Shown: in pieces, positions 2,287 to 37,095 of the stretch
Layout: the number at the start of each line of letters is the position of its first letter
Position numbering within the stretch: the first letter of the stretch is position 1
Virus record (IMG/VR): IMGVR_UViG_3300024262_003478
Location: 1 to 41,264 of that record
From: a virus
Reading direction: 5' to 3' (one strand)
Length of the DNA: 41,264 nt
Notes under the pieces: generated by a model
What the model was told of the DNA's origin: nothing
What the model saw: the letters and a program-made list of their open reading frames with translations, nothing else
The model's database searches: none
Program-made: the position numbers and the translations under genes

Positions 2287-2355
2287 AAAGATTGTGCCTG
2301 ATTGATGGCTACAATGCATTTTAAGGACATTTTTGATATGGACACTAATTCTTAA

Positions 2356-3675
2356 ATGAATCTATTAAATAAGTTTAAAAAACTTTCACAACTTAAAAAA
2401 AATATATTTTCAGGCACTCTTTTAGCAGGAACACATATTATATTATTATTAGTTGCTTTTCCAATATATATTAGGTATCTAGGTGTAGAGAGATATGGAT
2501 TGTGGGCAGTAATTTCAGTTGTACTTTTTTTTAGCCAAATGGGAGATTTAGGAATTAATGAAGCTGTAATAAAATATACAGCAGAGGAATATGGGAAAAA
2601 AAATTTTCAAGAGATTAATTCATATATTGTTACCGCTAACTTAATATTAATTATACCTTCATTATTAATTATAATTGCATTAACGATTTTTAATGAAAAC
2701 ATATTGGATTTATTAAAATTAACTGGCAGTCTTCGTCAAGAGATTAAATATTTAATTCCATTTTTTGGCATTTTAACATCTTTAATATTTTATTCAAATA
2801 TTATGTGGGGTACATTAAAAGGAGTTGGACGTGTTGATTTGGCCAATTATATTTTTATAATTGTTAGCTTTTTACAAGTAATAATTTCTATTATTTTAAT
2901 AATTTTAGGTTTAGGGGTGTGGGGATTATTTTTGGGTAATTTCATTTTATATATTTTTTTATTTATTTTATGCTTTTTAATACTAAAGAAAGTTTTTAAA
3001 TTAGAGATATTTAGATTAAATTATTTTGATATTAGAAAAATAAAAAAATTAACAAAATTTGGTGGTACTATATTTGGAAGCCGGTTAATTGCAATGTTCT
3101 TAGATCCTTTCAACAGAATAATTATTACAAGGTTTATAGGTTTATCGGCAGTGGCATATTATGACATTTCGCTAAAAGTGGTTTTATCTCTAAGGAGTCT
3201 TTTTCAAATGGGACTAAGTGCAACTATGCCGAAAGTTAGCGAGTTGAATGTAAGCAGTGTAAATCCAAAGTTAGAAATTTCTAATATACATAGAAAAGGA
3301 ATGAGATTTATATTGTTTTTTGCATTGCCATTTTTTGTGCTAATGTTTTTATTTGGAAAACCAATTCTAAATTTATGGCTAGGAAATAATTATGGTATTA
3401 ATATCTTGATGTCTTTAAGATTTTTTTTGGTAGCTTATTTTATTAATCTATTAAGTGTTCCGGCATATTATATTTTTATGGGGATTGGTAAAGTAAGATT
3501 ATGCTTTAATAATATTGCTATTCAATCTTTAATTAATGCAATTGTTATTTTATTTATTATTATGATTAGAGATAGAATAAGTTTAATAGAAGTTATATCA
3601 ATTTCTTGTATCAGCATTATAATATCAGCATTCTATATATTAGTTAAATTTAAATTGTTAAAATTACAGGGATGA
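2356..3675 (+). CDS. Oligosaccharide flippase, Wzx/MATE-like
   Basis: Protein of 439 aa with about 12 hydrophobic helices and short basic loops, the length and pattern of the polysaccharide transporter family (Wzx, RfbX; MVF clan). The start region carries the typical FSGTLLAGTHIILLLVAFPIY helix and the G(V/L)ERYGLWA motif after the first helix pair. These proteins flip undecaprenyl-linked oligosaccharides to the outer leaflet. The ribosome site is weak. It lies 69 bp after the nuclease lipoprotein on the same strand, and it has no polymerase or transferase beside it, so in a lysogen it would act on host sugar lipids, altering surface glycans (inference). Confidence 0.88.
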   Translation: MNLLNKFKKLSQLKKNIFSGTLLAGTHIILLLVAFPIYIRYLGVERYGLWAVISVVLFFSQMGDLGINEAVIKYTAEEYGKKNFQEINSYIVTANLILIIPSLLIIIALTIFNENILDLLKLTGSLRQEIKYLIPFFGILTSLIFYSNIMWGTLKGVGRVDLANYIFIIVSFLQVIISIILIILGLGVWGLFLGNFILYIFLFILCFLILKKVFKLEIFRLNYFDIRKIKKLTKFGGTIFGSRLIAMFLDPFNRIIITRFIGLSAVAYYDISLKVVLSLRSLFQMGLSATMPKVSELNVSSVNPKLEISNIHRKGMRFILFFALPFFVLMFLFGKPILNLWLGNNYGINILMSLRFFLVAYFINLLSVPAYYIFMGIGKVRLCFNNIAIQSLINAIVILFIIMIRDRISLIEVISISCISIIISAFYILVKFKLLKLQG

Positions 3676-7877: not shown

Positions 7878-8972
7878 TTATATTTTATAAAATCCTTCTG
7901 CACCTATTTTTCTATTTGCTCCTAATCCATAGTTAGAAGAATCATATTTCATTGCATAGATTAAAGTATTAAGGATATAACCAAAACCACCTATCATATT
8001 AGTGTCCGCTACAAGACAAGATACGGGACTATAGATATCTATATTATCTATCGGGAGTGTAGCTTTAAGCTGATATCCTGCTGTACCACCTGTTGTACCA
8101 TTTGCAGCCAATATAAATCTACAAATATTTCCTTTAATACTAAAATAAGCAAAATCTGTTGAAACTGATGTATAAGTCATAGAAGCACCTGCTGAATATG
8201 CAGGAGTCCAATTAAATGTTTGAGGAAATCCTAATGGATTTTCTATATGGCTATAATAGGCATCTGTTAAGGTAGCATTAGGTACTGTATCTCCTACAAC
8301 TGTTAAGAGTGTATCGGCTACAGTGATAATATAATCATACAACCATGTACCAGAATCATTATTTTGATATCTAATTTTATCGCCTTTTTGATATATTAAA
8401 GCTGCACCACTTGCTACCGTAATCTTATTTGCAGCATTATAGGTAAATGTTCCTGCTGTGTCCCAGCCTTTTTCTGATACATTTTGCAATCCTATCCTTT
8501 TTCTCTGGTCTGTAATATTAGCATTAGTAATTGTAGTAACATTTGCACCTACAGCAACAAGTACCAAATCCAATGCGTCATCTGGAAGTGCTGGAGCTGA
8601 AGGTGTACCTGCTGGTGTTCCTGTAAGGACTTGCAATTCCCATTCGTCATCTGCACCGCTAATATCGGTACTATCTTTTACCTGTGCTACTACCCTGTCA
8701 ATTCTATCGTTAGAAGCGTCGCTGGCTGCAATTGCCTTGTTGACAACAGCGTCATTATATATGCGGTAATGCCCCTGTGTTGCAGATTGGTCGCCCTGAA
8801 CGTATGCAGAACCAGCGGCTACGTTTACAGACATATCAGGCGTGCCAGCTTCGGCTACCGCCAAATCGCCAGAAGCAACTATTCCCTCAGTTAAAATATC
8901 ACGCCAGTGCTGCCTATCAAATTTTCCAGCGTAAGATAAAGTATCTAAAAAACTCGGTTTTATTTCAGCCAT
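7878..8972 (-). CDS. Baseplate or receptor-binding protein
   Basis: Protein of 364 aa. The first 150 residues (FDRQHWRDILTEGIV ... VNVAAGSAYVQGD ... YRIYND ... DRVVAQVKDS) match a domain common near the base of phage tail fibres, upper baseplate proteins of Gram-positive phages, including the typical DQRKRIGL end. The C-terminal half is Thr/Ala/Gly-rich and beta-prone, like a receptor-binding knob. AAAGGAAGTG is a strong ribosome site. It sits between Dit and the Gp37-like protein. Confidence 0.65.
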   Translation of the reverse strand: MAEIKPSFLDTLSYAGKFDRQHWRDILTEGIVASGDLAVAEAGTPDMSVNVAAGSAYVQGDQSATQGHYRIYNDAVVNKAIAASDASNDRIDRVVAQVKDSTDISGADDEWELQVLTGTPAGTPSAPALPDDALDLVLVAVGANVTTITNANITDQRKRIGLQNVSEKGWDTAGTFTYNAANKITVASGAALIYQKGDKIRYQNNDSGTWLYDYIITVADTLLTVVGDTVPNATLTDAYYSHIENPLGFPQTFNWTPAYSAGASMTYTSVSTDFAYFSIKGNICRFILAANGTTGGTAGYQLKATLPIDNIDIYSPVSCLVADTNMIGGFGYILNTLIYAMKYDSSNYGLGANRKIGAEGFYKI

Positions 8973-9012
8973 TTATATTCACTTCCTTTAATAATTTTTT
9001 ATAATATTCAAA

Positions 9013-14776: not shown

Positions 14777-15262
14777 TTATCCTCTTTCCATCTCGTTGGA
14801 GTCACTCGGTCTAAGTTCCCAATACTTAGAAATGCAATATTCCTTATTATATTTATCCTGCGGTACTTCCTCGTCTCCAAGTTTCACTTTACCGCTAAAG
14901 GTAGCCTTTGCTGCCCTTACCAACCAAATGTCTGAAGCTGTTTTGTATAAATTATAATAATTAGCTTTGATGTAAACCGCTGTTTGTGCGGTGGTAAAAG
15001 TATAAATTCCATTGATGTCATCCCCCGTATAATCCCCTTCATTTATTGGAGTATCTTCAGCAGAATCAAGTATTACATTATCCAAATATTTGTAGTCACA
15101 TAACCAAATCAGATAATCATCATTTTCATAAGCTAACGCTACATCGTCTAAGTAGTCTCTGTACTTATTCAGATATTTTGTAATTTCATCATCTGTAAAA
15201 TCTTCTGAATCCTCATCCTCATCTTCAATTAGTATTCTTACTTCATCAATTAGCTGGGACAT
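14777..15262 (-). CDS. Head-tail connector adaptor (gp6/gp15-like)
   Basis: Protein of 161 aa. The acidic helical start (QLIDEVRILIEDEDEDSEDFTDDEITKYLNKYRDYL) is typical of gp6-like adaptor proteins that dock under the portal. Ribosome site GGGAGG. It restarts the morphogenesis genes after the glycosylation block, and its first 17 bases overlap the end of the last glycosyltransferase, so the block is fused into the operon. Confidence 0.68.
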   Translation of the reverse strand: MSQLIDEVRILIEDEDEDSEDFTDDEITKYLNKYRDYLDDVALAYENDDYLIWLCDYKYLDNVILDSAEDTPINEGDYTGDDINGIYTFTTAQTAVYIKANYYNLYKTASDIWLVRAAKATFSGKVKLGDEEVPQDKYNKEYCISKYWELRPSDSNEMERG

Positions 15263-15854
15263 TTATTTTAGCCTCCCTCACCATAAGAATTTTATAATAT
15301 TTTTTCTTATCCTTTTTCCTATCAGCACTCCGCAAATCATTTCTATGCAGTAGCTCAAATTCTGTTACCTTCTGGCTGGTATATCCTTCTCCTACCCTGT
15401 CTAAATTTGCAAATAACTTTCCTTTGTCTAAAATCATCTTGTGCGTTCCCCAATAGTGCAGCCCATCCTTGTATCTGAAAAATCTATTAGTGCGCCTGTG
15501 CCTTCGTCTATCGCCCTGCTCGCCTATTTGTATTATACCAGTATCAGCTTCCAGTTGGGGAATTTCACCAACCAGTATTTCGTCTGTATCCAGGTTCAAA
15601 CAAATATCACCGTCTTTTAGTTGGTCAAGATATATATTCCTCTTTTCAACCTCATCAAGTCCACCGATTAAAGTAACTGATACCTTGTCTTTTAAATATT
15701 TCAAAGTACCATCCGTGGAAAAATTACTATCCCCAGGAAAGTCTGCAAATCTGCCGTCAATACAAATAATTTTGTCTACTTTACCAATTACAGATTCTAC
15801 ACATTCTTTTATAAGTGGCCAGTCGTTATAAGTTATTATCGTTGCTACTAACAT
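15246..15854 (-). CDS. GT2-type glycosyltransferase
   Basis: Protein of 202 aa with a GT-A fold start (LVATIITYNDWPLIKECVESV), CIDGRF in place of the usual D-G-S, and the metal-binding DTDE at 89-92. The C-terminal half is basic (QGDRRRHRRTNRFFRYKDG) and ends in a short acceptor region with GLHYWGTHKMI. It should transfer a sugar from a nucleotide donor. It is the last gene of the glycosylation block, overlapping the methyltransferase upstream by 7 bp and the adaptor gene downstream by 17 bp. Confidence 0.75.
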   Translation of the reverse strand: MLVATIITYNDWPLIKECVESVIGKVDKIICIDGRFADFPGDSNFSTDGTLKYLKDKVSVTLIGGLDEVEKRNIYLDQLKDGDICLNLDTDEILVGEIPQLEADTGIIQIGEQGDRRRHRRTNRFFRYKDGLHYWGTHKMILDKGKLFANLDRVGEGYTSQKVTEFELLHRNDLRSADRKKDKKKYYKILMVREAKINVPAN

Positions 15855-16366
15855 TTCGATTCCCAGTAACCAATATTTCCCATTACTTTGACATTACCAA
15901 GCTCGTTTACAAATTTGATAACCCATTGAGATACCTTTCTGGGATGTACCTTTGTATCGTGAAACAAAACTCTGCCACATCTTTTAACCAATTCAAAATC
16001 AGCTTTTACATTTTCATAAGAGTGATTGCCATCAATAAAAGCAAAATCAAAATCTATATCTTTGAGTATACTTTTTATATCTAATTCTCCCTTTACCAAA
16101 TGAAATGTAATTTTATCTGTGACTTTTAAATCATCCCACATTTTATATTTTTCGGGATAATCAACAATATCAAATGTATGAACTTTTTTTGCAAAATCTG
16201 CTATATATGCAACTGACATTCCTTTATATGTCCCTATTTCAATTGCTGTATTAATTTTTATACTGGGAAAAAATTCTATGAAATCCTTCTCCAAAGTAGC
16301 AGAACCAGAGCCCTTAAATAAATCATTATCTTTAGTATACTCAAACACACGTATCACTTTATTCAT
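15848..16366 (-). CDS. Class I SAM methyltransferase (Methyltransf_24/CmcI-like)
   Basis: Protein of 172 aa. Motif I is AIEIGTYKGMS (about 41-51), the acidic loop end is HTFDIVD, and DFAFIDGNHSYENVKADFELV with the later GRVLFHDTK gives the metal-assisted type seen in CmcI and sugar O-methyltransferases (Asp and His near FIDGNHSY). GGAG lies ten bases upstream of the ATG. It is in the glycosylation block, so a sugar hydroxyl is the likely substrate (inference). Confidence 0.78.
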   Translation of the reverse strand: MNKVIRVFEYTKDNDLFKGSGSATLEKDFIEFFPSIKINTAIEIGTYKGMSVAYIADFAKKVHTFDIVDYPEKYKMWDDLKVTDKITFHLVKGELDIKSILKDIDFDFAFIDGNHSYENVKADFELVKRCGRVLFHDTKVHPRKVSQWVIKFVNELGNVKVMGNIGYWESKC

Positions 16367-16367
16367 G

Positions 16368-17507
16368 TCAAACTCCTAACTCCCCTTGATAAATATAATA
16401 AGGTTCTGGCCCAAGCCAGAAATTATCATCTATAAAATCCTTTGCTTTCATATCGTTATATATTTTTGTCCCAGGCAACACCCATAATTGTTTTAATGAA
16501 CCCACGTTATCAGGCTGTATTATCTCCAAAAACTGCCTCGTTTCCTCTCTGGTCTGTTCATTATTTAACATTCCGTTATATATCATCAATGCACATAAAT
16601 TGATGCCAACTTCTTTTACTGCTAATGCTGCCTTGATATTTTGTTCAACTTTAATGTGCTTATTATATGCATCTAAAACCTGCTGGCTTCCTGATTCAAA
16701 CCCAATTGAAACTTCATAACAACCAGCTTTTTTGAGTAGATTAGCCAATTCGATGTCCATACCATCTGCTCTCATAGTTGCAAAGAAACGAATGCCCTTA
16801 CTGGCAAGACGGCCCATGATTTCTTTGGTAATATCAAGATTGCATGACAAGCTATCATCTTCAAATACAAAATGCCTTTTATTAAATCTGTCTATAATAT
16901 AATCTATTTCTTCTACGATATTATCAGCAGTTCTAACTCTGTATTTCTTCCAAACTTTATGCGTTGAGCAAAATGTACAATTTCCCGTGCAGCCCCTTGA
17001 TGCTATAATAGGCACTCTTATATCTGCTTTACCAATATATTTATCATTATCAAGATTCGCTAACTCCCATGCAGGAAATGGTATTGTATTAATATTAAGC
17101 TCAGGACTTTGTGTGAACTTATCACCATTACCAATTAAAATCTTCTCTAAACTTGCTTCCCCTTCACCAATAACTATGTAATCTATATATTCATAATTCT
17201 CTGCTAATTGCTGTGCCATAATTGAAGCATGAGGGCCACCAGCTATTGTTTTAGCATCGTATGTTTTGGCAATCTCTAAAACTTTTAAAGATTTATGCCT
17301 TCCTGGAGTAAGCATTTGCACACCCACAAAATCAGGCTTAAACTCTTTTAATTTTGCCTCAAAGTCAACCCAATTTCCTAAAAAGCCGTCATAATATTTA
17401 ACCTCGGCAATGTTTTTAATATAACCAGCTAAATACAATAATCCTAATACTGGATTTGAACGCCCACCCTGTGAGACATTAGGAGGGTTTACTAATAATA
17501 GTTTCAT
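16368..17507 (-). CDS. B12-binding radical SAM enzyme
   Basis: Protein of 379 aa. Residues 1-128 form a cobalamin-binding Rossmann domain (LLLVNPPN, GVQMLTP, IAGGPHAS, VIGEGEASLEKIL); the classic DxHxxG histidine is absent (DGFLGN), as in many base-off members. The radical SAM core follows with Cys173-x3-Cys177-x2-Cys180 in SRGCTGNCTFCS, then FEDDS and SIGFESGS. Such enzymes often methylate unactivated carbon. It ends one base before the ATG of the O-methyltransferase-like gene and overlaps the upstream methyltransferase by TAATG, so it probably modifies the sugars or acceptor made by this block. Confidence 0.85.
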   Translation of the reverse strand: MKLLLVNPPNVSQGGRSNPVLGLLYLAGYIKNIAEVKYYDGFLGNWVDFEAKLKEFKPDFVGVQMLTPGRHKSLKVLEIAKTYDAKTIAGGPHASIMAQQLAENYEYIDYIVIGEGEASLEKILIGNGDKFTQSPELNINTIPFPAWELANLDNDKYIGKADIRVPIIASRGCTGNCTFCSTHKVWKKYRVRTADNIVEEIDYIIDRFNKRHFVFEDDSLSCNLDITKEIMGRLASKGIRFFATMRADGMDIELANLLKKAGCYEVSIGFESGSQQVLDAYNKHIKVEQNIKAALAVKEVGINLCALMIYNGMLNNEQTREETRQFLEIIQPDNVGSLKQLWVLPGTKIYNDMKAKDFIDDNFWLGPEPYYIYQGELGV

Positions 17508-18193
17508 TATTTATTCTTGTGTTTCATAACAAATAATCCATCTAAACCTTTCCAACCTAAACCTGCAAACTTATTCTTATCTCTGAAATCAGCACCAGAT
17601 ATTAAATCATTATCAAATTTTATCTTCTTATATAGAGGATAATCCTCTTCTAATCCAAGTTTGTCCATTTGTTCAATATACCAATCTCTTGTTTGTGCAG
17701 TTCTTCTATTACCACCATACATGCTTCTAACAGGAAATATAAAATTAGGTGGATAACCTTTACGTCTAAATAAAAAATGAAACCATGTTTGAATATATAA
17801 AAGTAAAGTATCTGTAAAAATTTGAGATAACCCCTTTAAAGCAATAAGAATTTCATCTTCTTCAAGGTATTCTATGGTATTAATTGCAAATACAATCTCC
17901 CATTTTTTATCCCAATTAACTGTATCTATCATATCGGCCTGAAAAACATTTTTAGCAATAGAATTGTCAACTGCATATTGCACAATATCAAATCCTTCAG
18001 CGTTCTCACCTAATTCTTGCAGATAATGAGTTATCCATCCCATGCCACAACCAACTTCAAGTATCTTCTTATTATGAAAATATTTTGATATTACTTTGGC
18101 AGATTCTGGATAATGAATTGTTCGTTGTGTATTATTTTCTGCATTATTACGTGAATCAAAAAATTTTGGTTTAAATCTATCTGATTCTCTCAT
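17507..18193 (-). CDS. Class I SAM methyltransferase
   Basis: Protein of 228 aa with motif I ILEVGCGMGWITHYL (44-58), FDIVQYAVD after strand 2, FQADMID and WEIVFAINTIEYLEED after strand 4, the layout of Methyltransf_11/25 enzymes. The C-terminal part (about 150-225) is a lid with aromatic residues. Target unknown; its place between a glycosyltransferase and the B12 radical SAM gene points to a sugar or a glycolipid-like acceptor. Confidence 0.8.
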   Translation of the reverse strand: MRESDRFKPKFFDSRNNAENNTQRTIHYPESAKVISKYFHNKKILEVGCGMGWITHYLQELGENAEGFDIVQYAVDNSIAKNVFQADMIDTVNWDKKWEIVFAINTIEYLEEDEILIALKGLSQIFTDTLLLYIQTWFHFLFRRKGYPPNFIFPVRSMYGGNRRTAQTRDWYIEQMDKLGLEEDYPLYKKIKFDNDLISGADFRDKNKFAGLGWKGLDGLFVMKHKNK

Positions 18194-18928
18194 TTATTCC
18201 CATTCCTTTGGTATTTCTTTTAAATTGTCCTCTTTAATTAGTTTGTATTTTTTTTCAATAAAGTGCTTCTCACCATTCAGCGGTATCCCTTTTTTTGCAC
18301 TTCGTTGTGCCCATTTCATATATCTTTTCCCTTTTTCAAATAATTCAGCATCACTCTTAAGAAGTGAATAATGTTTTAATGCGATATTATTATCATGAAC
18401 TACGTTAAAACCCTCAATTCCTTTCATGATCCATTTGCCATTAAAACACAGATGCTCATGTACCTCACCATAATATTCCGTTCTGGTGTCTTTCCTATAT
18501 AGCCTTAGATGTGGTTCAAGTCCCCTGTCAGAATTTATTGTCTTAACATCTCTGATTAAATTTGCTGTCGGGAATACAAAACCAAATACATCCTTGTGCT
18601 TGTCGGCTCTTATTTCATCTATTAACCGTGATATTGATTTTGAATATGTCTCATCGACATCTATCTGCAAAACCCACTCTGATGTAACTTCTGCAAGTGC
18701 GATATTTTTCTGTTCTGAAAACGAATCTGGCATCTCGTTTATTCTTAAACATATATTTGCGCTATCCTGCTTTTGGAAGTATTTAATCTTATCTACCGTA
18801 TTATCTTTCGAGCCACCATCTATTATTACATACTGGTCAGGCTTGACATAATCCCTTAACCACTCAAGCGTTTGCAATATAAAACTCGATTCATCCTGAC
18901 AGATTGTTAGACTTGAAACTTTATCCAT
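18194..18928 (-). CDS. GT2 family glycosyltransferase
   Basis: Protein of 244 aa from the ATG at 18928-18926, which has AAGGAG seven bases upstream; an in-frame TTG six bases earlier is less likely. GT-A motifs: LTICQDESSFILQTLEWL, VIIDGGSKDNT (34-44), SFSEQKNIAL and the metal-binding DVDE (90-93). The region around 145-170 with YYGEVHEHL is typical of SunS/WaaE-like transferases. The start overlaps the end of the preceding gene by eight bases (ATGGATAA). Confidence 0.85.
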   Translation of the reverse strand: MDKVSSLTICQDESSFILQTLEWLRDYVKPDQYVIIDGGSKDNTVDKIKYFQKQDSANICLRINEMPDSFSEQKNIALAEVTSEWVLQIDVDETYSKSISRLIDEIRADKHKDVFGFVFPTANLIRDVKTINSDRGLEPHLRLYRKDTRTEYYGEVHEHLCFNGKWIMKGIEGFNVVHDNNIALKHYSLLKSDAELFEKGKRYMKWAQRSAKKGIPLNGEKHFIEKKYKLIKEDNLKEIPKEWE

Positions 18929-19670
18929 TCTCAAGCTCCTTAAATAACGCTAAATGCCATTCTCTAAATTTATCCCAAGTAAAATTTATTGAATACCTAT
19001 CCTTTTGCATTATAGATTTTTCAATAGACTTAAAATAGTTTATTAACTGGCTGTAATCCTTATATATAAAATCAATATCGGTTTTAAAGGTATGTATAAA
19101 ACCTATATCCCTTGACACTACTGGCACTCTTGCATATATGGCATTTAATATATCCATAGAGCCACCTTCCGCAAGTGATGTTTGAAGTAAATAATCTATA
19201 CTCTGGAAAAACTTATCATTGGTTATATCTGTATGTTTAAATTCAAAAATACCCAATAAATCCTTTTTAAGTCTCTCAAGTTCGCCTCTGTTTTTTCTAC
19301 CGGTTGAGTAATCTCTACCACTTGTTCCTATTACAATTTTCTTTTTGCTGTTAATAGAAATTCCCATATACGGGCATACCTTAATTTTAGAAGATTCTAT
19401 TCCGTGTTTTATAAGCTCGCTTTGTCCATAAGATGACATACAAATAATCAAATCAGCTTTGTCTAAAATAGTTGTATCATCATCATCAAGGTGCGTAAAG
19501 AACACAATATCAAATTTAGATTTTATGAGGTTAAAATGTTGCCAGTATTTCCAATTCACATAATATGTTATATCTGCTCTTTTGTTATCCAGAACTCTGC
19601 CAATTTTTACAATCTCTCTGCCAATTTTGTTGAGTATCCAACCATCGTCAGGGTATATTATTCCAATCAT
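18921..19670 (-). CDS. GT4-like glycosyltransferase (GT-B fold)
   Basis: Protein of 249 aa. The N-terminal half is a Rossmann-like domain with FFTHLDDDD and ADLIICMSS; the C-terminal half holds IVIGTSGRDY and the nucleotide-sugar signature TSLAEGGSMDILNAIYARVPVVSRDIG, with Glu in the usual position. It is shorter than the usual 350-400 aa of GT4 enzymes, so the N-terminal domain is reduced. TAATG overlap with the 796-aa transferase. Confidence 0.75.
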   Translation of the reverse strand: MIGIIYPDDGWILNKIGREIVKIGRVLDNKRADITYYVNWKYWQHFNLIKSKFDIVFFTHLDDDDTTILDKADLIICMSSYGQSELIKHGIESSKIKVCPYMGISINSKKKIVIGTSGRDYSTGRKNRGELERLKKDLLGIFEFKHTDITNDKFFQSIDYLLQTSLAEGGSMDILNAIYARVPVVSRDIGFIHTFKTDIDFIYKDYSQLINYFKSIEKSIMQKDRYSINFTWDKFREWHLALFKELENG

Positions 19671-22060
19671 TAGTATGCTCTCTTATTACTTTTATGTTTT
19701 TTCCATTCAAAATCTTTCGTAGGTAGGGTTCCTATTTTTAAGCCAAGTTTCCATGCAACATAATCCAAAGATAACTGATCCCTATGTGAGCCATTTTCAA
19801 TCCCTCTCCAAACACCCTCGCCAAACTCTTTTACAATATCAGTATGTTTTCTTAAAATGATATTACCTGCATGTAATCCATAATCTTTCGGATATCCTTC
19901 CTTTGCGATTTTTGTAATTTGCCCATCTATAACATTTGGATAATCAAGCCTGTACTGCTTACAGACCTTTGCTTCCCCATATAAACATTTCCTGGCAAGA
20001 TGCAGTTTCATTAAAATATCACAATCATTAGTCAATAATCTGTTTATATCAACCAGTATTTTAAAATTACAATCTATATATAGACTAACTTCAGCATCTG
20101 GGAAGTATCTACATAAAAGCCACTTGTATAATCTTGATTGCCTTCTTGGCTCAAGTATCTGATCTACTTTTATCACATTCCAGAAATTACTTTTAATATC
20201 AGTATTGCTAAAGAGATAAAATTCCCAATCAGGATTTGGATAATGGTCTTCTATGATATTATCATATTCACCTATATTGACCGATACTACTATCTTATTA
20301 TGCTTTTGTTTTTTTTTTATGTTCGTTATCTTTACATCATTTGCTACATATATATCTGTATCCTTTTTTTTACGCAACCTTTCAAGCGCTTCTGCGGTTA
20401 CCTTTCTACTATTTATTTTGGATTCCACCGCTGTTCTGTGTCCATAATGATGCACATAGGAATGTTTAATCCAATAAGTTTTATATCCAACTTTTTTTAT
20501 ACGATTATAAAAATCAGTATCATCGTAATATGCAATAGGAGACATGCGATAATCAAATACCCCGATTTTATCTATCACATCCTTACTGGTAAGAAAACAA
20601 AATCCAACAAGTTCAATTTCCTCATATCCTCTTGGCAATATATTGGGAATATTCTGTATTTCTTCATCCTTCATATCAAATCTTCTTCTTGAATAATTTA
20701 TAATCATCTGTTTAGTTCTTGACCATGAAGTAGAGGGGCCAAGTAATCCTACATCCGGTAAGCTAAAACCAGCTTTAAGTTTTTTTAACCAATCTTTTGT
20801 AACTATAGTATCAGAATTCAAAAAACAGAGATAATTATAACTTGCTGTTTTAATGCCCTGATCAGTACCATAAGAAAATCCCTTATTTTCTTCATTAGTT
20901 ATCAATGTAAATCCAAGTTTTGCTTGCTGTTCAGATATATATTTTTTGGTAACTACGTTAGAGCCGTTATCTATTATAATAAGTTCATAATCAGAGGTAT
21001 ATTTAATCACGCTTTCAAGACATTTTTTAAAATAATCCAAGGCATCTCTTACAAGAATGATTACTGATACCCGAGATGTTTTTGTTTCTACCTTGCCAAG
21101 TTCTACGTCATTGACTACATATAAATCTGATGACTTTTTACGTTCGTCAAGTTTTTTCTTGTTCTCCCCTCTTGTAACTGTATTCAATCCCATTTCATTT
21201 GTAGTTTTACTTCCAAAATGATGGACATAAGAAGCCGTACACCATACCATTTTAAAACCAGTCTTATCAACCCTCCATGCAAAATCTACATCTTCATGCC
21301 AGGCAAGTCCATATCTTCTCCAATCAAATACTCCAATCTTATCAAATACTTCACGCTTAACAATCCAGCAAAATGCTGTAAGGCGAGTAATTGTATATTT
21401 TTCAGGGGCTATATCTGCATAGTGATTAATTGTAGTTTCATCTTCAATCTTAAACCTACCTATTGATTCTGGGATAGTCTGCATTGGAACTGTTCTACAA
21501 GTGGAAGGGCCTACTATTCCAACATTATTAGTATACTTAAATCCTTTAAGCATCCTTGGAAGCCAATCATGAGTAACCACACAGTCGGAGTTTATAAAGC
21601 AGATATAATCAAATGTAGCTATCTTTATACCCTGATTCCAACCGTAGGATATTCCCATATTTTCCTTATTGGTTATGAGCTTATAATCTATATACCCTAT
21701 ATTTTTAAGGTATTTTTTAGTCTCGGCATTAGAGCCGTTGTCTATAATTATGAGTTCATAGTTATCTGTATATAAAGCAATACTCTCAATACATTTCTTC
21801 ACATATTTAAGAGCATCCTTTATAAGGACAATTATTGAAACATTCTCGTGTTTTATATAATCTTTTAATTTTATAAATTCAGTACCATGTTTAGATATTA
21901 TGATTTTTTTAGATATTATGGTTTTACTTTCACTTGGATAATGTGCAACACCTTTATTTATCCATCTCTCAGCAATCTTATCTGGTATATTAGCCTCATC
22001 ACCCTTTTTATATCTTACTGGATGCAGATTCTTATCCCTGTTTAAAATTACCTTAATCAT
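19670..22060 (-). CDS. Three-domain glycosyltransferase with virion-type N-terminal module
   Basis: Protein of 796 aa from the ATG at 22060-22058, which overlaps the end of the preceding gene (ATGATTAA); a TTG start 57 bases earlier is less likely. Residues 1-45 match the N-terminus of the 121-aa protein next door (AERWINKGVAHYPSE against ADRLVNRGKAHLLPE). Residues 72-320 are a GT2 domain (IIIDNGSN, INSD 156-159, WHED 254-257). Residues 330-580 are a second, clearly duplicated GT2 domain (IIIDNGSN, LNSD 414-417, YYDD 511-514). Each ends in a similar SDLYVVNDV/TDIYVANDV segment. Residues 588-796 resemble the DUF616/TOD1-like transferase domain (EPRRQSRLYKWL, YIDCNF). It could add at least two or three sugars in succession. 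Confidence 0.85.
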   Translation of the reverse strand: MIKVILNRDKNLHPVRYKKGDEANIPDKIAERWINKGVAHYPSESKTIISKKIIISKHGTEFIKLKDYIKHENVSIIVLIKDALKYVKKCIESIALYTDNYELIIIDNGSNAETKKYLKNIGYIDYKLITNKENMGISYGWNQGIKIATFDYICFINSDCVVTHDWLPRMLKGFKYTNNVGIVGPSTCRTVPMQTIPESIGRFKIEDETTINHYADIAPEKYTITRLTAFCWIVKREVFDKIGVFDWRRYGLAWHEDVDFAWRVDKTGFKMVWCTASYVHHFGSKTTNEMGLNTVTRGENKKKLDERKKSSDLYVVNDVELGKVETKTSRVSVIILVRDALDYFKKCLESVIKYTSDYELIIIDNGSNVVTKKYISEQQAKLGFTLITNEENKGFSYGTDQGIKTASYNYLCFLNSDTIVTKDWLKKLKAGFSLPDVGLLGPSTSWSRTKQMIINYSRRRFDMKDEEIQNIPNILPRGYEEIELVGFCFLTSKDVIDKIGVFDYRMSPIAYYDDTDFYNRIKKVGYKTYWIKHSYVHHYGHRTAVESKINSRKVTAEALERLRKKKDTDIYVANDVKITNIKKKQKHNKIVVSVNIGEYDNIIEDHYPNPDWEFYLFSNTDIKSNFWNVIKVDQILEPRRQSRLYKWLLCRYFPDAEVSLYIDCNFKILVDINRLLTNDCDILMKLHLARKCLYGEAKVCKQYRLDYPNVIDGQITKIAKEGYPKDYGLHAGNIILRKHTDIVKEFGEGVWRGIENGSHRDQLSLDYVAWKLGLKIGTLPTKDFEWKKHKSNKRAY

Positions 22061-22418
22061 TCCACTTCTCAAACTTGTTTTTTTTCTTCCTTTTTCTTTT
22101 AGGTTTAGATTCTTCAAAACTTGTAAATCGTTCTGGGATAGGCTCTATTAAATCAACATCAGTTACAACCTCTTTTACTGGTTCAGCAAGTTCTCTAACT
22201 TCTCCTACTTTTATTTTTATTTTTTCTAATGGGACTTTAATAGGCCACTTGGCTTTTCCAGAATATTCCTCTATTACTTTTATTTCTTTTTTAGTAGGCA
22301 CGTAATCGCTGAAAGGTATTTCTGGTAGTAAATGCGCCTTACCTCTGTTGACTAATCTATCAGCTTCCCTCTGCCTTACTTCTTCTACCTTACCAGTTTT
22401 GTTAATTACAATTTTCAT
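22053..22418 (-). CDS. Small head-associated protein sharing a module with the big glycosyltransferase
   Basis: Protein of 121 aa encoded just after the major capsid gene. Residues 1-34 (MKIVINKTGKVEEVRQREADRLVNRGKAHLLPE as a whole; key part ADRLVNRGKAH) resemble short N-terminal modules of small proteins that follow capsid genes in many phages. The middle is Pro/Glu-rich and the end strongly basic (KPKRKRKKKNKF). TAGGAG precedes the ATG. It may be a head decoration or completion protein, or the acceptor/adaptor for glycosylation. The function is not known; the shared module is seen directly. Confidence 0.65.
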   Translation of the reverse strand: MKIVINKTGKVEEVRQREADRLVNRGKAHLLPEIPFSDYVPTKKEIKVIEEYSGKAKWPIKVPLEKIKIKVGEVRELAEPVKEVVTDVDLIEPIPERFTSFEESKPKRKRKKKNKFEKWND

Positions 22419-22473: not shown

Positions 22474-23370
22474 TTAAAGTCCTGTAACTTTTGCGAAAGC
22501 ATTTACATCTCTCATTCTAAATGCTCTTCTAACCCATAACTTTATAGCTTCCATATTCTTTTCCCACAAATTATAAGTTTTTTCACCTATAGTAATAGTG
22601 GCTTGATTGGTTATGTCGTATTTTACTCCACCTCTTAAACCCTCAAACCCATATGTCCAATCTCCTACAATTAACTCATAAGCAGCGGGAGAACCAACCT
22701 TTAACATATTTCTGCTAAATCTTATGGGATAGCCATACAATGTTGCAGGCTCTTTTGCATTAGCAGGTTGAAATATGGGAAGTCCATCCTCATCTCTCAG
22801 ATTTCTAAGTCTTGCTTTTAGAGTAGTATGTGCAGCCCATGCTATATTATCCTGGAAACCATCTTCTTCTATACAACCCAATGCATTAGAAATATCTATA
22901 AGTAAATCATCTCCAGTTGGATATGCAATAATATGTTCTGCTGGAATATCTCCACTTATATTTTCCGCAAAAGTTCCTACATCTTCGTAACCCATATAGA
23001 TTCTATCCAGTTTTTTAGCAATAGCTTTTTCACACTCTCCTCTTAAGAAACTATCAACAGCTATATTTGCGTTTTCACTCCACTCTTCAGTTAGAGGCAC
23101 AATTACAGCTATTTCTTTTGTAGTAAGGGTTAGCTGCTCAAAAGTTCCTTTACTCTTAGGTTTTTTTCCACCTTCAGTTCCTACAACTCCAGCCTCTATT
23201 TCATCGCCAACCATATTTATATCCAGAGTCTTAGAAGTCATAGGCCACTTTCTAAGAAATGGTTGGCAAACAGATTTTATTTCAATATTACGTAACATCT
23301 CAACTGCTAATGGTGCTGGTACAACATACTTACCATCAGCATCAACTATTCCACTATAAAAATCACCCAT
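22474..23370 (-). CDS. Major capsid protein, HK97 fold
   Basis: Protein of 298 aa. The start (VVPAPLAVEMLRNIEIKSVCQPFLRKWPMTSKTLDI) and GTEGGKKPKSKGTFEQLTLTTKEIAVIVPLTEEW are typical of the N-arm, E-loop and P-domain of gp5-like capsid proteins; the later GLRGGVKYDITNQATI and WVRRAFRMRDVNAFAKV are the A-domain and end. There is no long delta domain, in keeping with a separate scaffold encoded upstream. AAAGGAG sits within the end of the scaffold gene (TAAAATG). Confidence 0.9.
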   Translation of the reverse strand: MGDFYSGIVDADGKYVVPAPLAVEMLRNIEIKSVCQPFLRKWPMTSKTLDINMVGDEIEAGVVGTEGGKKPKSKGTFEQLTLTTKEIAVIVPLTEEWSENANIAVDSFLRGECEKAIAKKLDRIYMGYEDVGTFAENISGDIPAEHIIAYPTGDDLLIDISNALGCIEEDGFQDNIAWAAHTTLKARLRNLRDEDGLPIFQPANAKEPATLYGYPIRFSRNMLKVGSPAAYELIVGDWTYGFEGLRGGVKYDITNQATITIGEKTYNLWEKNMEAIKLWVRRAFRMRDVNAFAKVTGL

Positions 23371-23371
23371 T

Positions 23372-23986
23372 TTATTTTCTCCTTTGTCTTATCATCTCAC
23401 CAAATAACTCATCAGGGTCTTTTGAACCTTTTAAATCTTTCTTGGCAAAGTTTCCACTACCAGGTTTGCCTAGTTCGGTTTCCTTGATAAGGTATGGTTT
23501 ACTTTTTGCTATTTTGTCTATTACCTGCTCTACAGTCTTTTGGTCTACATCTTCTTCAGAAGCCAGTTCAGCTTTAGCCAGAAGTTTTACAACATCTAAA
23601 TCTGCAAAGTTCTTATCGGATGCAACAGTTAGAATAAGATTATCAATCTCCTTGTCCTTATACTCTGTCTGGATGTCTACTAACTGTCCCTCAAGCTCTA
23701 AAATCTTCTTCTGCTGTTTTTCAGTATCTGACAATTTAGCATCTTCAAGTTTTTTAAGTTCTGCCTGAACCTTTGCAAATTCAGTCTTTAACTTTGACTT
23801 ATCGGTTCTGTACTTTTTAGCTTCTTCCCTAAGTTCCCTTACATAGCTGTAGTCAAACTTGCTTTTTCCTTCTAACTGGTCAATACTTGCCTGTATTGCC
23901 TTTGCCTCATCGGAGGTCTCTCCATGCTCACTTACAGCACTTTCAAGTTCCGTGTTTAGTTGCTCTAAACTTTTTTCGTCTGCCAT
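23372..23986 (-). CDS. Capsid scaffolding protein (Gp20-like)
   Basis: Protein of 204 aa, acidic and almost wholly helical with a long coiled coil (about 50-120: LREEAKKYRTDKSKLKTEFAKVQAELKKLEDA) and a basic C-terminus (GNFAKKDLKGSKD ... GEMIRQRRK) that would bind the capsid inner face. It is the phage minor structural protein GP20/scaffold type. AAAGGAAGTG precedes the ATG. Confidence 0.83.
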   Translation of the reverse strand: MADEKSLEQLNTELESAVSEHGETSDEAKAIQASIDQLEGKSKFDYSYVRELREEAKKYRTDKSKLKTEFAKVQAELKKLEDAKLSDTEKQQKKILELEGQLVDIQTEYKDKEIDNLILTVASDKNFADLDVVKLLAKAELASEEDVDQKTVEQVIDKIAKSKPYLIKETELGKPGSGNFAKKDLKGSKDPDELFGEMIRQRRK

Positions 23987-26851: not shown

Positions 26852-28306
26852 TTATTTATTTTCCCCGTAAACTCCACCCATATTCTTTTCTTGCTCATTC
26901 TGTTCTTCCAGTATTTCAGCCGTTAATTTTTCAGGGTCCTCTATCCCCATCAAATCCATCTCATGCTTAATTGAACTTAACCCAGCCGACAGCCTCATTA
27001 TTGCAGTTTCAACTTCCTCCTTTTCATTTAACGGTACTGGCATATGTGTGATAATTTCAATGTCCATATCTTCGGGGTACGAATAAGATTCATAAATTGC
27101 CCTCATCTTCAGGCTGTCAGAATACATCTGCTCCAGTTTAGGCTTCCAGATAGTATTCTTGATATTGGTTTTTGATATCATAGAAGCAAACATTAGCTTT
27201 AAGGCTACTCCCGATAGATTGCCAAGTTTAGTTACTACTGACGGATTTATTTGTATTACGCTTGAAAGCTCAAACATTATATCTTTTAGATTATCTATGT
27301 GATTTTTTAAGGTATCAGTGTAAGCAAATTTAGATTCCAGCTTAGTTATGCTGGGCTTTACATCACCTGTTCCTGCACTAATTAAATCCCATACTGCACC
27401 TGGCTTCGTCTTTGGTTTGTTCTTATTACCTTTTGCATCAGTAAACTGCTTGATGTTAAGCATTATAGTTATTGCAAACATCTCAAAACGTAGTGCATCT
27501 GAAGAGTCCGAATACTTTTTGTTTAACTCATCAATTATCGGTATCAGGTCTGTAAGCTCGCTATATCCAAATACCATGCCAATAGCAGGGTTGTTTGGGA
27601 TAATATAGACTGGTATAAAATCAATATACTTTTTGCCATTGCCTAAAAATATCGGCTCCTGGATAACTTCCTCCACTTGCAAATTCATCTTCACGCTGTA
27701 GGTAGCTTCACTAAACAAACACTTGCCGTCTATCATTTCAAAGGTCTGCTTCCAGATAATATCATCGGACTTAAAAGCTACAAAATGAACTTTAGTTAGC
27801 TTCTCGTAGTCATCAAATGCAGTTATAGGAAAACATTCTATTCGGGGACGGGGTAAAAAACGTATTCCAAGCTTACTGTCATAAATCATCTTAAATACTG
27901 CACCACCAGAAGTATTGCACTCTTTGGCTGCCTGCTGAAGTTTCAAGTCCATCCTGTTTATTTTATGAATTGTGTACAGGTCTTTTTCTACTACATCAGC
28001 CTTCTTCTCGTTGGCTTTCTTCTCGGTACTTACAGCAATATCAATAGGCTTTTCAAACTGCCAGCCTGCGAGTTTATCCACGATATACCGACTATAATTT
28101 ATCGGTATTTGGGCAGGTTTTCTATCAGATGTTTGTTTAAATTCAGGGTATTTTTGCTCAATGTGCTTGAACACATCGTTTTCGTAATAATCATAATACT
28201 TTATAAGTGCGTTTAGTTGCGCCAGTTGTGCTTCAGTAAATACCGAATATGCTGTATTTTTGGTTTCTTCAGGATATACCAGTTGTATTAATTTTCTTAA
28301 ATCCAT
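26852..28306 (-). CDS. Portal protein, SPP1 gp6-like
   Basis: Protein of 484 aa. The YYDYYENDVFKHIEQKYPEF start, NYSRYIVDKLAGWQFEKPI, FEMFAITIMLN and LSNVVIQINPS-like ELSSVIQINPSVVTKLGNLSGVALKLMF blocks are typical of SPP1-family portals (wing, clip, stem helix with SGVALK). The acidic tail (EILEEQNEQEKN) is normal. The portal forms the dodecameric DNA gate at one capsid vertex. Order terminase-portal-MuF is conserved. Confidence 0.9.
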   Translation of the reverse strand: MDLRKLIQLVYPEETKNTAYSVFTEAQLAQLNALIKYYDYYENDVFKHIEQKYPEFKQTSDRKPAQIPINYSRYIVDKLAGWQFEKPIDIAVSTEKKANEKKADVVEKDLYTIHKINRMDLKLQQAAKECNTSGGAVFKMIYDSKLGIRFLPRPRIECFPITAFDDYEKLTKVHFVAFKSDDIIWKQTFEMIDGKCLFSEATYSVKMNLQVEEVIQEPIFLGNGKKYIDFIPVYIIPNNPAIGMVFGYSELTDLIPIIDELNKKYSDSSDALRFEMFAITIMLNIKQFTDAKGNKNKPKTKPGAVWDLISAGTGDVKPSITKLESKFAYTDTLKNHIDNLKDIMFELSSVIQINPSVVTKLGNLSGVALKLMFASMISKTNIKNTIWKPKLEQMYSDSLKMRAIYESYSYPEDMDIEIITHMPVPLNEKEEVETAIMRLSAGLSSIKHEMDLMGIEDPEKLTAEILEEQNEQEKNMGGVYGENK

Positions 28307-28536: not shown

Positions 28537-29775
28537 TTATCTAAATGAAAAATCAGCGAGTTTGGATTCGCCCATAATATCAAATCTTGAATACGCTCCA
28601 TATTTCATACTGTCGCAGAAGTGGTCTTGAAACTTAACTGGCTCCTCCATTACATTGCCGTCCTTATCTTCACGTCTTTTATAGCTCTGCAATTCCTTGA
28701 TTCCATTTGTACTCTCTGCAGTAACTCCGAGCATATGTGTCTTGCAATAATCTATCCCGGCCGTTACATCTTTACGGGCCTTGTGGACATTAAATCCAGC
28801 ATGATAAAACTCATTAATCCTATCCGGTTCAGAAGGATCTGCGTAAATCTCCCTGTACCTCTGTTCTACCGGTATTAATTTCTTTGCCCGTTCTATAAGT
28901 TCAGTATTGGTAAGTCCACTCTGGTACAGGAGTTCGTGAGTTATAAAGTCATTTTCAATCCAGTTAATTTCAGTCAACGCCGATGAGTTTGAATATCCGA
29001 AGTCCAGGCCGTATGTTATATCATCAACTTTTAGGCCATCTATAAACTTAATGCCGTCTTTTATCTCAACCTTACTATAAGTCTTCCACTTACCATATAT
29101 GATATTTTCAAGTATGCCCCACTGGCTTAACCTGAATATTTTATACAGGTTTAAATCAATGTCTTTTAGCCTATCAAGGCGCTTTCTATCTGTACTGGAA
29201 GCAAATGGATTATCATCTATTGTTGAATAATGTACCGCTGTATCCTCATCGGGTTTATCTACAATTTCAGTCTTAATCCAGGACAGTGCCGACAAAGGAT
29301 TGCAGGACAGAAACATCTGGTTAATTCCATCAGTCTGACGCCTCATCAGAATATCAAGATTTATAAATTCCTTAAACGTAATATCAATCGCTTCTTCTAC
29401 CCAGATATAATTGCCCTGCTCCAATGACTTGAGCTTGTCTACATCATCAAGGCCTGTAAAAAGAATTGAATTTAGTGAACCGTCTTTGCGTGTTATTTCA
29501 AGTTCAGTATTATTTATATTTACATATTTGTAGCAGTCATATTTCTTTAGAAAATCTACAACTAATTGAAAACAACTTTTTTTAACTGCTACCCTCGTTT
29601 TACGAAGTATAAGTGTTCGTTTGTTTTCTTCGCCAAAAAACTTATTGACTAAAAGATGCAACGCCACACTCCAGGACTTCGTGCTGTCCCTGCCACCTAC
29701 CAAAAAGTTTATTCTTTTGTCTGTTTGACATAGCCAGTTAAATACATTACTTGCTTTCAGGTTTCTTATTTCCAT
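28537..29775 (-). CDS. Terminase large subunit (PBSX-like)
   Basis: Protein of 412 aa. The ATPase has Walker A GGRDSTKS (27-34), Walker B IWVEEA (124-129) and the coupling motif SCNP (157-160). The RNase H-like nuclease has Asp258 in LDFGYSN, ADPSEPD near 320 and CDSMKYG near 393. It translocates DNA into the prohead and cuts it. Overlap of 29 bp with the small subunit gene. The type is used by headful packagers, in keeping with circular permutation. Confidence 0.93.
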   Translation of the reverse strand: MEIRNLKASNVFNWLCQTDKRINFLVGGRDSTKSWSVALHLLVNKFFGEENKRTLILRKTRVAVKKSCFQLVVDFLKKYDCYKYVNINNTELEITRKDGSLNSILFTGLDDVDKLKSLEQGNYIWVEEAIDITFKEFINLDILMRRQTDGINQMFLSCNPLSALSWIKTEIVDKPDEDTAVHYSTIDDNPFASSTDRKRLDRLKDIDLNLYKIFRLSQWGILENIIYGKWKTYSKVEIKDGIKFIDGLKVDDITYGLDFGYSNSSALTEINWIENDFITHELLYQSGLTNTELIERAKKLIPVEQRYREIYADPSEPDRINEFYHAGFNVHKARKDVTAGIDYCKTHMLGVTAESTNGIKELQSYKRREDKDGNVMEEPVKFQDHFCDSMKYGAYSRFDIMGESKLADFSFR

Positions 29776-33801: not shown

Positions 33802-33965
33802 ATCCTCTCCCTCCAAATCCAATATCCTTTGCCGTCAATAAATAATCTACCCAGCTTCTCCATGCTTAAAAATTTCTCCTCAAACTCCTTCAGTAATTTA
33901 TCCTTCTCTAAAATCATTGCAATTAATTTTTCTTTGCCTAATTGTTGTAACCTTTGATAGTTCAT
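33798..33965 (-). CDS. 55-aa coiled-coil protein
   Basis: ATG at 33965-33963 overlaps the TGA of the radical SAM gene (ATGA), and the stop overlaps the next start in the same way. The product has a leucine-heptad helix (LQQLGKEKLIAMILEKDKLLKEFEEKFL) then LGRLFIDGKGYWIW. Coupling on both sides supports it. Function unknown. Confidence 0.62.
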   Translation of the reverse strand: MNYQRLQQLGKEKLIAMILEKDKLLKEFEEKFLSMEKLGRLFIDGKGYWIWRERI

Positions 33966-34858
33966 AACAGCCCCTCTATACTTAATAATTTTCTATATTT
34001 CCTATTTTCAAACATATCTAAAAATTGATTAAAACTCATCCCCTGAAACCATTTATGATTATTTACCCATTGAGATAGGGGTATTAATTTGCGATCCTTT
34101 GAAAAGTTATATCTCATAACATAGGCATTTTGATTTCTTGATTTTAGGTAATTTGCTCTGAATAAATCCTCTTCCAAGGTAGTATTAAAGCCAGTTAGCA
34201 TTAGCCAGGTACAGCGATTAATCCCGTTTTTTTGAAGTAGAGTTATAGCCCTATCTACATCATCAAAATAATCCAAACTATCAAAAGCAAAATGCAGTTC
34301 CTTATGTCTAATTGTTTTTAACTCATCTATAATATCTTGATTCAGTAATCTACAGTCCAGTCCTTGGTTAAAATCCAACCTGATTTTATTTTCTCTTGCC
34401 TGCTTACATATCAATTTAAAATGTTCGGGCAGTGCTAAAATATTATTATCAAGTAAAATTATATCTTTAGATTCGCTATCCCATAAATCCAGTAAATCAC
34501 CAACTGCCCTAATCTTACCTTCCTTCTCTGGCACAATACACCAAGGACATTTTCTAATACAACCACGACTACAAAAACCCATATTTATTCGTGGTTTAAT
34601 TTTTTCTATTTCATCCGGTAAATTAATACTAAGACTATAACCACTACCACCAATTAGGCATTTAGGATCATCTTCCCAGTCAAAACATTTAGATCTATTT
34701 CTTTTAAAAACACAGGATACATAGATTTTATCTGCTAAGGGTTTATATAAAGGAAAATTCCATACAACCTCATTACCTCTATTAAGATAATATTTTTCAA
34801 TCTTCTTTAAGGCTAAATTAGGAATTTTACTATCTATGTCTATTATCAATATTTTCAT
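33962..34858 (-). CDS. Radical SAM protein
   Basis: Protein of 298 aa. The N-terminal 90 residues look like a reduced cobalamin-binding-type Rossmann domain (KILIIDIDSKIPNLAL ... YVSCVF). The iron-sulphur motif is Cys100-x3-Cys104-x2-Cys107 (RGCIRKCPWC), followed by LDNNILALPEHF, DFNQGLDCRLL, HFAFDSLD and the YNFSKDRKLIPL end. It forms a 5'-deoxyadenosyl radical; similar proteins occur in early regions of other phages without known substrate. Overlap ATGA with both neighbours. Confidence 0.83.
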   Translation of the reverse strand: MKILIIDIDSKIPNLALKKIEKYYLNRGNEVVWNFPLYKPLADKIYVSCVFKRNRSKCFDWEDDPKCLIGGSGYSLSINLPDEIEKIKPRINMGFCSRGCIRKCPWCIVPEKEGKIRAVGDLLDLWDSESKDIILLDNNILALPEHFKLICKQARENKIRLDFNQGLDCRLLNQDIIDELKTIRHKELHFAFDSLDYFDDVDRAITLLQKNGINRCTWLMLTGFNTTLEEDLFRANYLKSRNQNAYVMRYNFSKDRKLIPLSQWVNNHKWFQGMSFNQFLDMFENRKYRKLLSIEGLL

Positions 34859-36459: not shown

Positions 36460-37095
36460 TCAATTGGGGAACTCTTGTATTTTTTCTTTCCATTTAAGAT
36501 TATCTTTTAGGAATATTGGTATATTTAATTCCATCGCCTGATTAATAATATTTTGTACCCACTCTTTTTTGTGGACTGGTTTTGGAGTTAAGCCACCAAT
36601 TATTATCCAATCTAACGATAAATATTTTGTTATTGGTTCTGGTTCAGACAATAATGGTTCGTAGGATATAAATTTAATGTTATCCATTCCCGAAAAAGAA
36701 CCGTGTATGTGGGATTGATTTTTCTCTTTTCCGGTAATAGTAGTACCAAGCCAGCAATTTTTGGGAAATATAAAATCTTGATACCTTTGAGGAAATTTAG
36801 TTAAAAATATAAAAGTATGATAACTTGGTAAAGCATAAATATGAAACAATATTTCGTTTACCCATTTTTTAGGTATCCAATCACCAAAAATTTCATGAGT
36901 AGAACCTACAAATATTTTAGATGGTTTTTTAATTTTTTCTAAATCATAAAATATATCCGAATCCCATCTAATTTCTGGATTCCAACCAAATCTCTTATAC
37001 ATTCTAATAGCATAGCAATACCAACAATCATTTTTACATAACCCCTTAATCGGATTAATTGTATAATCGCACCATTCTATTTTTGTTCTATTCAT
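36460..37095 (-). CDS. DUF5131 (phage Gp37/Gp68-like) protein
   Basis: Protein of 211 aa. MNRTKIEWCDYTINPIKG followed by Cys20-x3-Cys24-x2-Cys27 (CKNDCWYC) is the exact start of the DUF5131 family; later KIFVGSTHEIFGDWIP, FIFLTKFPQRY, WLGTTIT, ISYEPLLS and DWIIIGGLT match its conserved blocks. The cysteine motif and TIM-like pattern suggest a radical SAM relative. The protein is a little short for the family. Substrate unknown. It overlaps the 3D-domain gene (ATGA). Confidence 0.85.
   Translation of the reverse strand: MNRTKIEWCDYTINPIKGLCKNDCWYCYAIRMYKRFGWNPEIRWDSDIFYDLEKIKKPSKIFVGSTHEIFGDWIPKKWVNEILFHIYALPSYHTFIFLTKFPQRYQDFIFPKNCWLGTTITGKEKNQSHIHGSFSGMDNIKFISYEPLLSEPEPITKYLSLDWIIIGGLTPKPVHKKEWVQNIINQAMELNIPIFLKDNLKWKEKIQEFPN

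Follow-up and report, generated by a model that had tools for sequence, protein, structure and literature searches.

A mini-domain shared by a phage glycosyltransferase and the small protein encoded behind the capsid gene: a candidate targeting module for exchangeable enzymes

The locus and its glycosyltransferase cassette

To our knowledge, the route by which phage glycosyltransferases (GTs) find virion proteins is an open question. The locus analysed here poses it in a particular form, as a large GT is encoded among head genes, and its N-terminus resembles that of the small protein encoded between it and the capsid gene. The initial annotation had proposed that this shared segment could dock the enzyme on the capsid, or mark the two proteins as partners. 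We refer to the whole stretch of DNA analysed, 41,264 nt in length (IMG/VR virus record IMGVR_UViG_3300024262_003478, positions 1-41,264), as the window, and to the shared segment as the module. The small gene does lie directly after the capsid gene, both on the minus strand; the name "head protein" given to its 121-aa product reflects gene position only. The features of the window that the analysis draws upon are as follows.

28537-29775 (-): large terminase gene
26852-28306 (-): SPP1-type portal gene
23372-23986 (-): scaffold-like protein gene
22474-23370 (-): HK97-type major capsid protein, 298 aa (PF05065, 107.9 bits against a cut-off of 24.2 bits; phrog_10, major head protein)
22053-22418 (-): 121-aa small protein, N-terminal module and Lys-rich tail, the latter predicted disordered
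22329-22418 (-): module of the small protein, short form, residues 1-30 (hhalign against GT modules; pLDDT 91-93)
22053-22060 (-): 8-nt overlap of the end of the small-protein gene with the ATG of the GT gene, ATGATTAA (read from sequence)
19670-22060 (-): 796-aa GT bearing the module, ATG start (PF00535, 162.6 bits against 23.3, two stretches matched; PF04765, 42.4 bits against 21.4)
21926-22060 (-): N-terminal module of the GT, full form, residues 1-45 (profile comparisons; AF2 pLDDT)
21332-21838 (-): first GT2 domain of the 796-aa GT, residues 75-243 (PF00535)
20561-21073 (-): second GT2 domain of the 796-aa GT, about residues 330-500 (PF00535; approximate limits, based on alignment)
19742-20191 (-): TOD1/MUCI70-like domain of the 796-aa GT, residues 624-773 (PF04765)
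18921-19670 (-): GT-B-like glycosyltransferase without module (weak PF00534; relatives in L052, L057 and L080)
18194-18934 (-): GT2 glycosyltransferase without module (PF00535, 50.3 bits; no module match)
17507-18193 (-): cassette methyltransferase (PF13489, 28.1 bits)
16368-17507 (-): cassette B12-binding radical SAM protein (PF04055, 81.5 bits; PF02310, 65.1 bits)
15848-16366 (-): cassette methyltransferase (PF13578, 48.4 bits)
15246-15854 (-): final cassette gene, GT2-like (weak PF00535)
2356-3675 (+): flippase-like gene

Behind the 796-aa GT, the cassette continues with six more GT, methyltransferase and radical-SAM genes (15246-19670), in none of which a profile scan found the module. It is followed on the minus strand by a head-completion-like gene and then by tail genes. 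A gene of 203-208 aa similar to the final, GT2-like one also closes the cassette in the related phages L004, L006 and L008. Elsewhere in the window, an SNase with an Ada-type metal-binding domain and the polysaccharide flippase-like protein are encoded at 1438-3675 on the plus strand, opposite to the phage genes, and are possibly host flank or cargo. In the early region, one gene matches radical SAM weakly and another encodes a DUF5131 protein (33962-34858 and 36460-37095, both on the minus strand). The C-terminus of the capsid protein, AKVTGL (22474-22494), was considered as a glycan site; it recurs in most capsids, even at identities as low as about 35%, but reads AKVLL in L063 and L064.

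Homology of the two N-termini and the family they belong to

Compared directly, the N-termini of the GT and the small protein gave a modest match (BLASTP, E 0.014). Their BLOSUM62 score of 46 was equalled or bettered by about 4 in 5000 shuffles, and they formed the best pairing among all N-termini in the window. What the pairwise match leaves weak was settled by family profiles, which make the homology firm. A profile of GT modules (A12) was compared by hhalign with one of small proteins (A9), selected for the location of their genes after that of the capsid (probability 98.1, E 6.3e-14); the score was 68.9, against a maximum of 15.4 for 200 column shuffles. In each of nine genomes that have both genes, the start of the small protein matched the GT start of its own genome (0-1 of 2000 shuffles equal or better). 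A module profile whose model includes both window sequences matched exactly twice in the whole 41-kb window, at the GT (9.5e-25) and at the small protein (5.2e-13). Chance resemblance was ruled out by the shuffles, the per-genome pairs and the profile comparison. Homology of the two N-termini, as initially claimed, is confirmed by these sequence comparisons, while the shared segment, first given as 45 residues, is corrected to about 40 (GT residues 1-41, small protein residues 1-30).

Structure prediction gave the same mini-fold for both N-termini, not unrelated folds. The GT module was predicted as strand, hairpin, strand and helix (AF2 pLDDT about 91 over residues 1-40), and residues 1-30 of the small protein as strand, strand, helix and strand, with a short turn replacing the 10-residue hairpin of the GT. 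The long form of the module is found in the small proteins of L017, L057, L074 and L052, and the short form in the others. Because the small protein of L017 unites the full module with the same C-terminal motif as the 121-aa protein of the window, the short form is most readily explained as a module variant.

Fold models of both modules retrieved overlapping sets of small uncharacterised phage proteins from BFVD, including proteins named DUF7210 (E about 0.01, probability 1.00). With Foldseek, the GT module also resembled the ribosomal L9 N-domain and GINS, and YqbF (2hjq) was within the first ten matches at a weak E of 0.22. Comparison of module profiles A5, A10 and A13 with the PDB by sequence gave nothing convincing. 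The module is a DUF7210/YqbF-like mini-domain, very common in tailed phages as a free small protein. It is related to DUF7210 (PF23843), yet is not filed as a member because its scores fall under the Pfam cut-off of 27 bits (14.2 bits for the GT module; 19 bits for the best relative, L057, with the full profile). A module private to the GT and the small protein, as a mark of this pair, was ruled out by this wide occurrence in phages.

Free module proteins occur directly behind the capsid gene in the enterobacterial prophages L018 and L044, in Campylobacter PC10 and in Geobacillus TP-84, this adjacency being known from a handful of examples. PC10 and the Salinibacter phages were reached through weak tblastn matches with the module consensus in named phages, used as leads. 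In L053, a Syntrophomonadaceae prophage, the module is fused to a Rho_N domain two genes after the capsid gene, and in VWB the free module protein, gp43, is encoded among tail genes. No mention of DUF7210 was found in the open-access literature searched.

Enzyme exchange behind a constant module

Relatives were collected with capsid, module and GT queries, giving 13 distinct phages: that of the window, L004 (= L011), L006 (= L007), L008, L017, L052, L057, L060, L061, L063, L064, L073 and L074. The enzymes behind the module differed among them. Two GT2 domains with a TOD1-like domain were found in the window and L006, and two GT2 domains in L052, L061 and, judged from incomplete sequence, L017. 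GT4-type enzymes were found in L004, L008, L060, L063, L064, L073 and L074. In L057, the first GT has no module, and the next one (TOD1-like plus a GT2 domain) carries it internally, at about residues 235-277. The small module protein and the module-GT are kept as a pair in 11 of the 13 phages, L008 and L057 being the exceptions. In L008, the interval between the capsid gene and the module-GT (L008:2811-3000) holds no small module protein, unlike in all other relatives.

L060 and L061 were 90% identical in the capsid and 77% in the module, against 22% in the enzyme body; L017 and L061 were 92% identical in the enzyme body. Between the window and L004, the small proteins were 92% identical and the capsids 50%; at the DNA level, 95% identity covered the small gene and the opening 20 nt of the GT gene. 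The module had accumulated more synonymous change than the enzyme (0.82 versus 0.30 for L063/L064 and 0.62 versus 0.23 for L017/L061), which suggests an older module and a later replacement of the enzyme behind it. As judged from sequence variation, the module is under purifying selection (pN/pS 0.07-0.43, rough values owing to the short sequences). Phage GTs, capsid glycosylation and DUF7210-like small proteins were already known; what appears new from these alignments is a module that stays constant while the GT2-type or GT4-type enzyme behind it swaps, once with the module internal. A constant module ahead of exchangeable GTs was not found in the open-access literature, covered mostly at title and abstract level.

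Some of these genomes showed other features of note. The cassette of L008 (4283-6099) includes an epimerase-like protein and two proteins resembling transketolase halves by eye, possible sugar-precursor genes. ORFs like HNH homing endonucleases are scattered among the head and tail genes (L011:5329-7891 and L057:5956-6441). The short contig L052 (PWVL01000014.1) was binned together with a genome of the Desulfuromonadales, which is a weak hint of the host.

A search with the GT2 body of the window led to a second, unrelated clade, contigs L080-L086, with a different portal, a head protease and a different capsid. The gene order is portal, module-GT, GT, methyltransferase, protease and capsid, which places the module-GT between the portal gene and that of the protease; in L080, some 2 kb separate it from the capsid gene that follows. 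The module passed the profile in five of the seven records (E 2e-9 to 5e-4), L081 and L086 being weak, and the clade-2 module family matched the GT modules of the first clade at 96% (E 2e-9). A profile scan of the clade-2 records with a module-GT detected no second module. Head-gene clusters of both clades thus carry the combination of module and GT, which need not adjoin the capsid gene. The gene immediately after the clade-2 capsid gene in L080 encodes an 82-aa protein with a Lys/Arg-rich tail (8734-8982); it looked module-like by eye, but had no profile match and was rejected as a module.

Proposed targeting to the phage head and other readings

That the module stays while enzymes are exchanged suggests, without proving it, that the enzyme is carried by the module to virus heads under construction. 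The best explanation, unproven and to which we give a probability of about one half, is that the GT N-terminus is a targeting module that docks at the head for virion glycosylation. A DUF7210/YqbF-like mini-domain, commonly free near the capsid gene, would have been joined to GTs encoded among head genes. It would probably bind a component of the assembling head, be it the lattice of capsid subunits or a site that the small protein uses as well, and thereby keep the enzyme at the head. Virion proteins, the likely acceptors, would be glycosylated during or after assembly, and different enzymes could be exchanged behind the constant module.

Head docking is favoured by the location of the module-GT in the head cluster in both clades, by the virion-borne relative in TP-84, by the weak resemblance to lambda gpFI and by the capsid glycans of mycobacteriophages. 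Several observations count against it. The module and the small protein do not follow capsid identity, as the comparison of the window with L004 illustrates; the clade-2 fusion stands behind the portal gene, away from the capsid gene; VWB has its free module protein among tail genes; L008 has a module-GT and no small protein; and the module is missing from the first GT of L057. The original proposal was supported in part: the module is real, homologous in the two proteins, with a common predicted fold, selected, kept across repeated enzyme exchange, recurrent in an unrelated clade and akin to small proteins encoded beside capsid genes, at least one of which is in the virion; docking on the capsid is its proposed role.

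The module might instead bind its own copy, the GT pairing with the small protein or oligomerising while the capsid is left untouched. Both neighbouring proteins do carry the module, their genes overlap and may be translationally coupled, and the pair is widely kept among the 13 phages. The module-GT of L008 nevertheless occurs without a small module protein, and for that of clade 2 no second module could be detected in its record; we regard such self-association as unlikely. A tether to DNA or to the packaging complex, with the GT acting on phage DNA or packaging proteins, would fit the predicted likeness to the L9 N-domain and GINS, the Rho_N fusion of L053, the Lys-rich tail of the small protein and the proposal that gpFI works via non-specific DNA binding (PMC4856287). 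It seems distinctly improbable for a GT module that is acidic, with no obvious basic surface in its sequence, and for a cassette that lies in the head region with methyltransferase and radical SAM genes; among the window proteins scanned, which were part of the ORFs, there was no base-modification enzyme.

A slimmer chance is left for modification of the host envelope, in which the enzymes would change glycans on the host surface, to mask receptors or convert the serotype, and the role of the module would be unrelated to the virion. Some phage GTs are known to act in this way (PMC12619734), and the window does encode a flippase-like protein. Yet two unrelated clades have the cassette within the head operon, the module is without membrane features, and its free relatives are encoded among head genes. 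Least probable of all is that the module has no role in the enzyme, and is the conserved edge of an exchange cassette that provides shared DNA for crossovers. Exchange boundaries do lie at both module ends, and the near-identical DNA of the window and L004 reaches just into the GT gene. Module DNA has itself diverged, with synonymous differences as high as 0.9, and the protein is conserved all the same, so that it is the amino acids, not DNA identity, that have been kept; the module also persists internally in L057 and in the second clade.

Under the preferred reading of head docking, a constant, selected module related to capsid-side proteins, placed before changing enzymes, would be a direct and testable answer to the question of GT targeting. 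A wider version, which we hold more tentatively, would make the head-side module an interchangeable address tag in tailed phages, behind which unrelated GT families are plugged for delivery to the assembling capsid. If true, this would be a targeted virion-glycosylation system able to change the sugar and keep the target. The module might be usable as a tag by which enzymes are directed to phage heads, and the many tiny unnamed proteins whose genes lie near those of phage capsids would gain a testable role.

Comparison with known systems

Capsid glycans are known in mycobacteriophages (PMC12619734, PMC11256854). In the virion-glycosylating members (Che8 and others; Freeman 2023, cited in both), phage GTs have been linked to the glycans of capsid proteins, and no module of the window's kind is described in the passages covered. 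Maravista, which is related to these phages, has its GT genes near the 3' end of the genome, whereas those of the window stand among head genes. Known members of DUF7210 (PF23843), phrog_2616, phrog_829 and YqbF (PDB 2hjq) appear to share this kind of mini-domain, by weak profile matches and fold search, as free small phage proteins of no known function; in the window, it heads a glycosyltransferase instead. A close counterpart of the small protein is TP-84 gp13, a 64-aa module protein with a Lys-rich tail encoded directly behind the capsid gene. It was detected in phage particles by mass spectrometry (PMC5889276) and, unlike in the window, has no fused glycosyltransferase. Salinibacter phage 2_1 (OR896244) encodes, in its capsid region, a GT2 protein in which one segment resembles the module (phrog_2616, E 1e-3) and which adjoins a free module protein. 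The segment follows the GT2 domain, unlike in the window, and is weakly supported (profile E 0.04); the gene (L049:2808-4294) is possibly a further independent fusion.

Lambda gpFI (PF14000, PDB 2lsm), a DNA-packaging chaperone, is like the small protein of the window in having its gene directly behind the capsid gene (lambda E-FI-FII). The module was weakly similar to the C-terminal domain of FI (hhalign 14-60%, E 2e-3 to 9e-5), and none of 200 column shuffles reached the score in the FI comparison of A12 with A11. With single sequences, hhalign against gpFI gave P 0.05; the match was better with families, and still weak. A search of the 121-aa protein with an E limit of 1 did not match PF14000, which lambda FI itself hits with 199 bits; 2lsm was outside the Foldseek and VIA matches listed, which tells nothing either way. 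The 121-aa protein is without the N-terminal domain of FI, and its module comes first. Since gpFI has been described as attached to the gpE lattice (PMC4856287), this weakly similar, prohead-bound chaperone may well serve as a precedent for docking of the module at the head.
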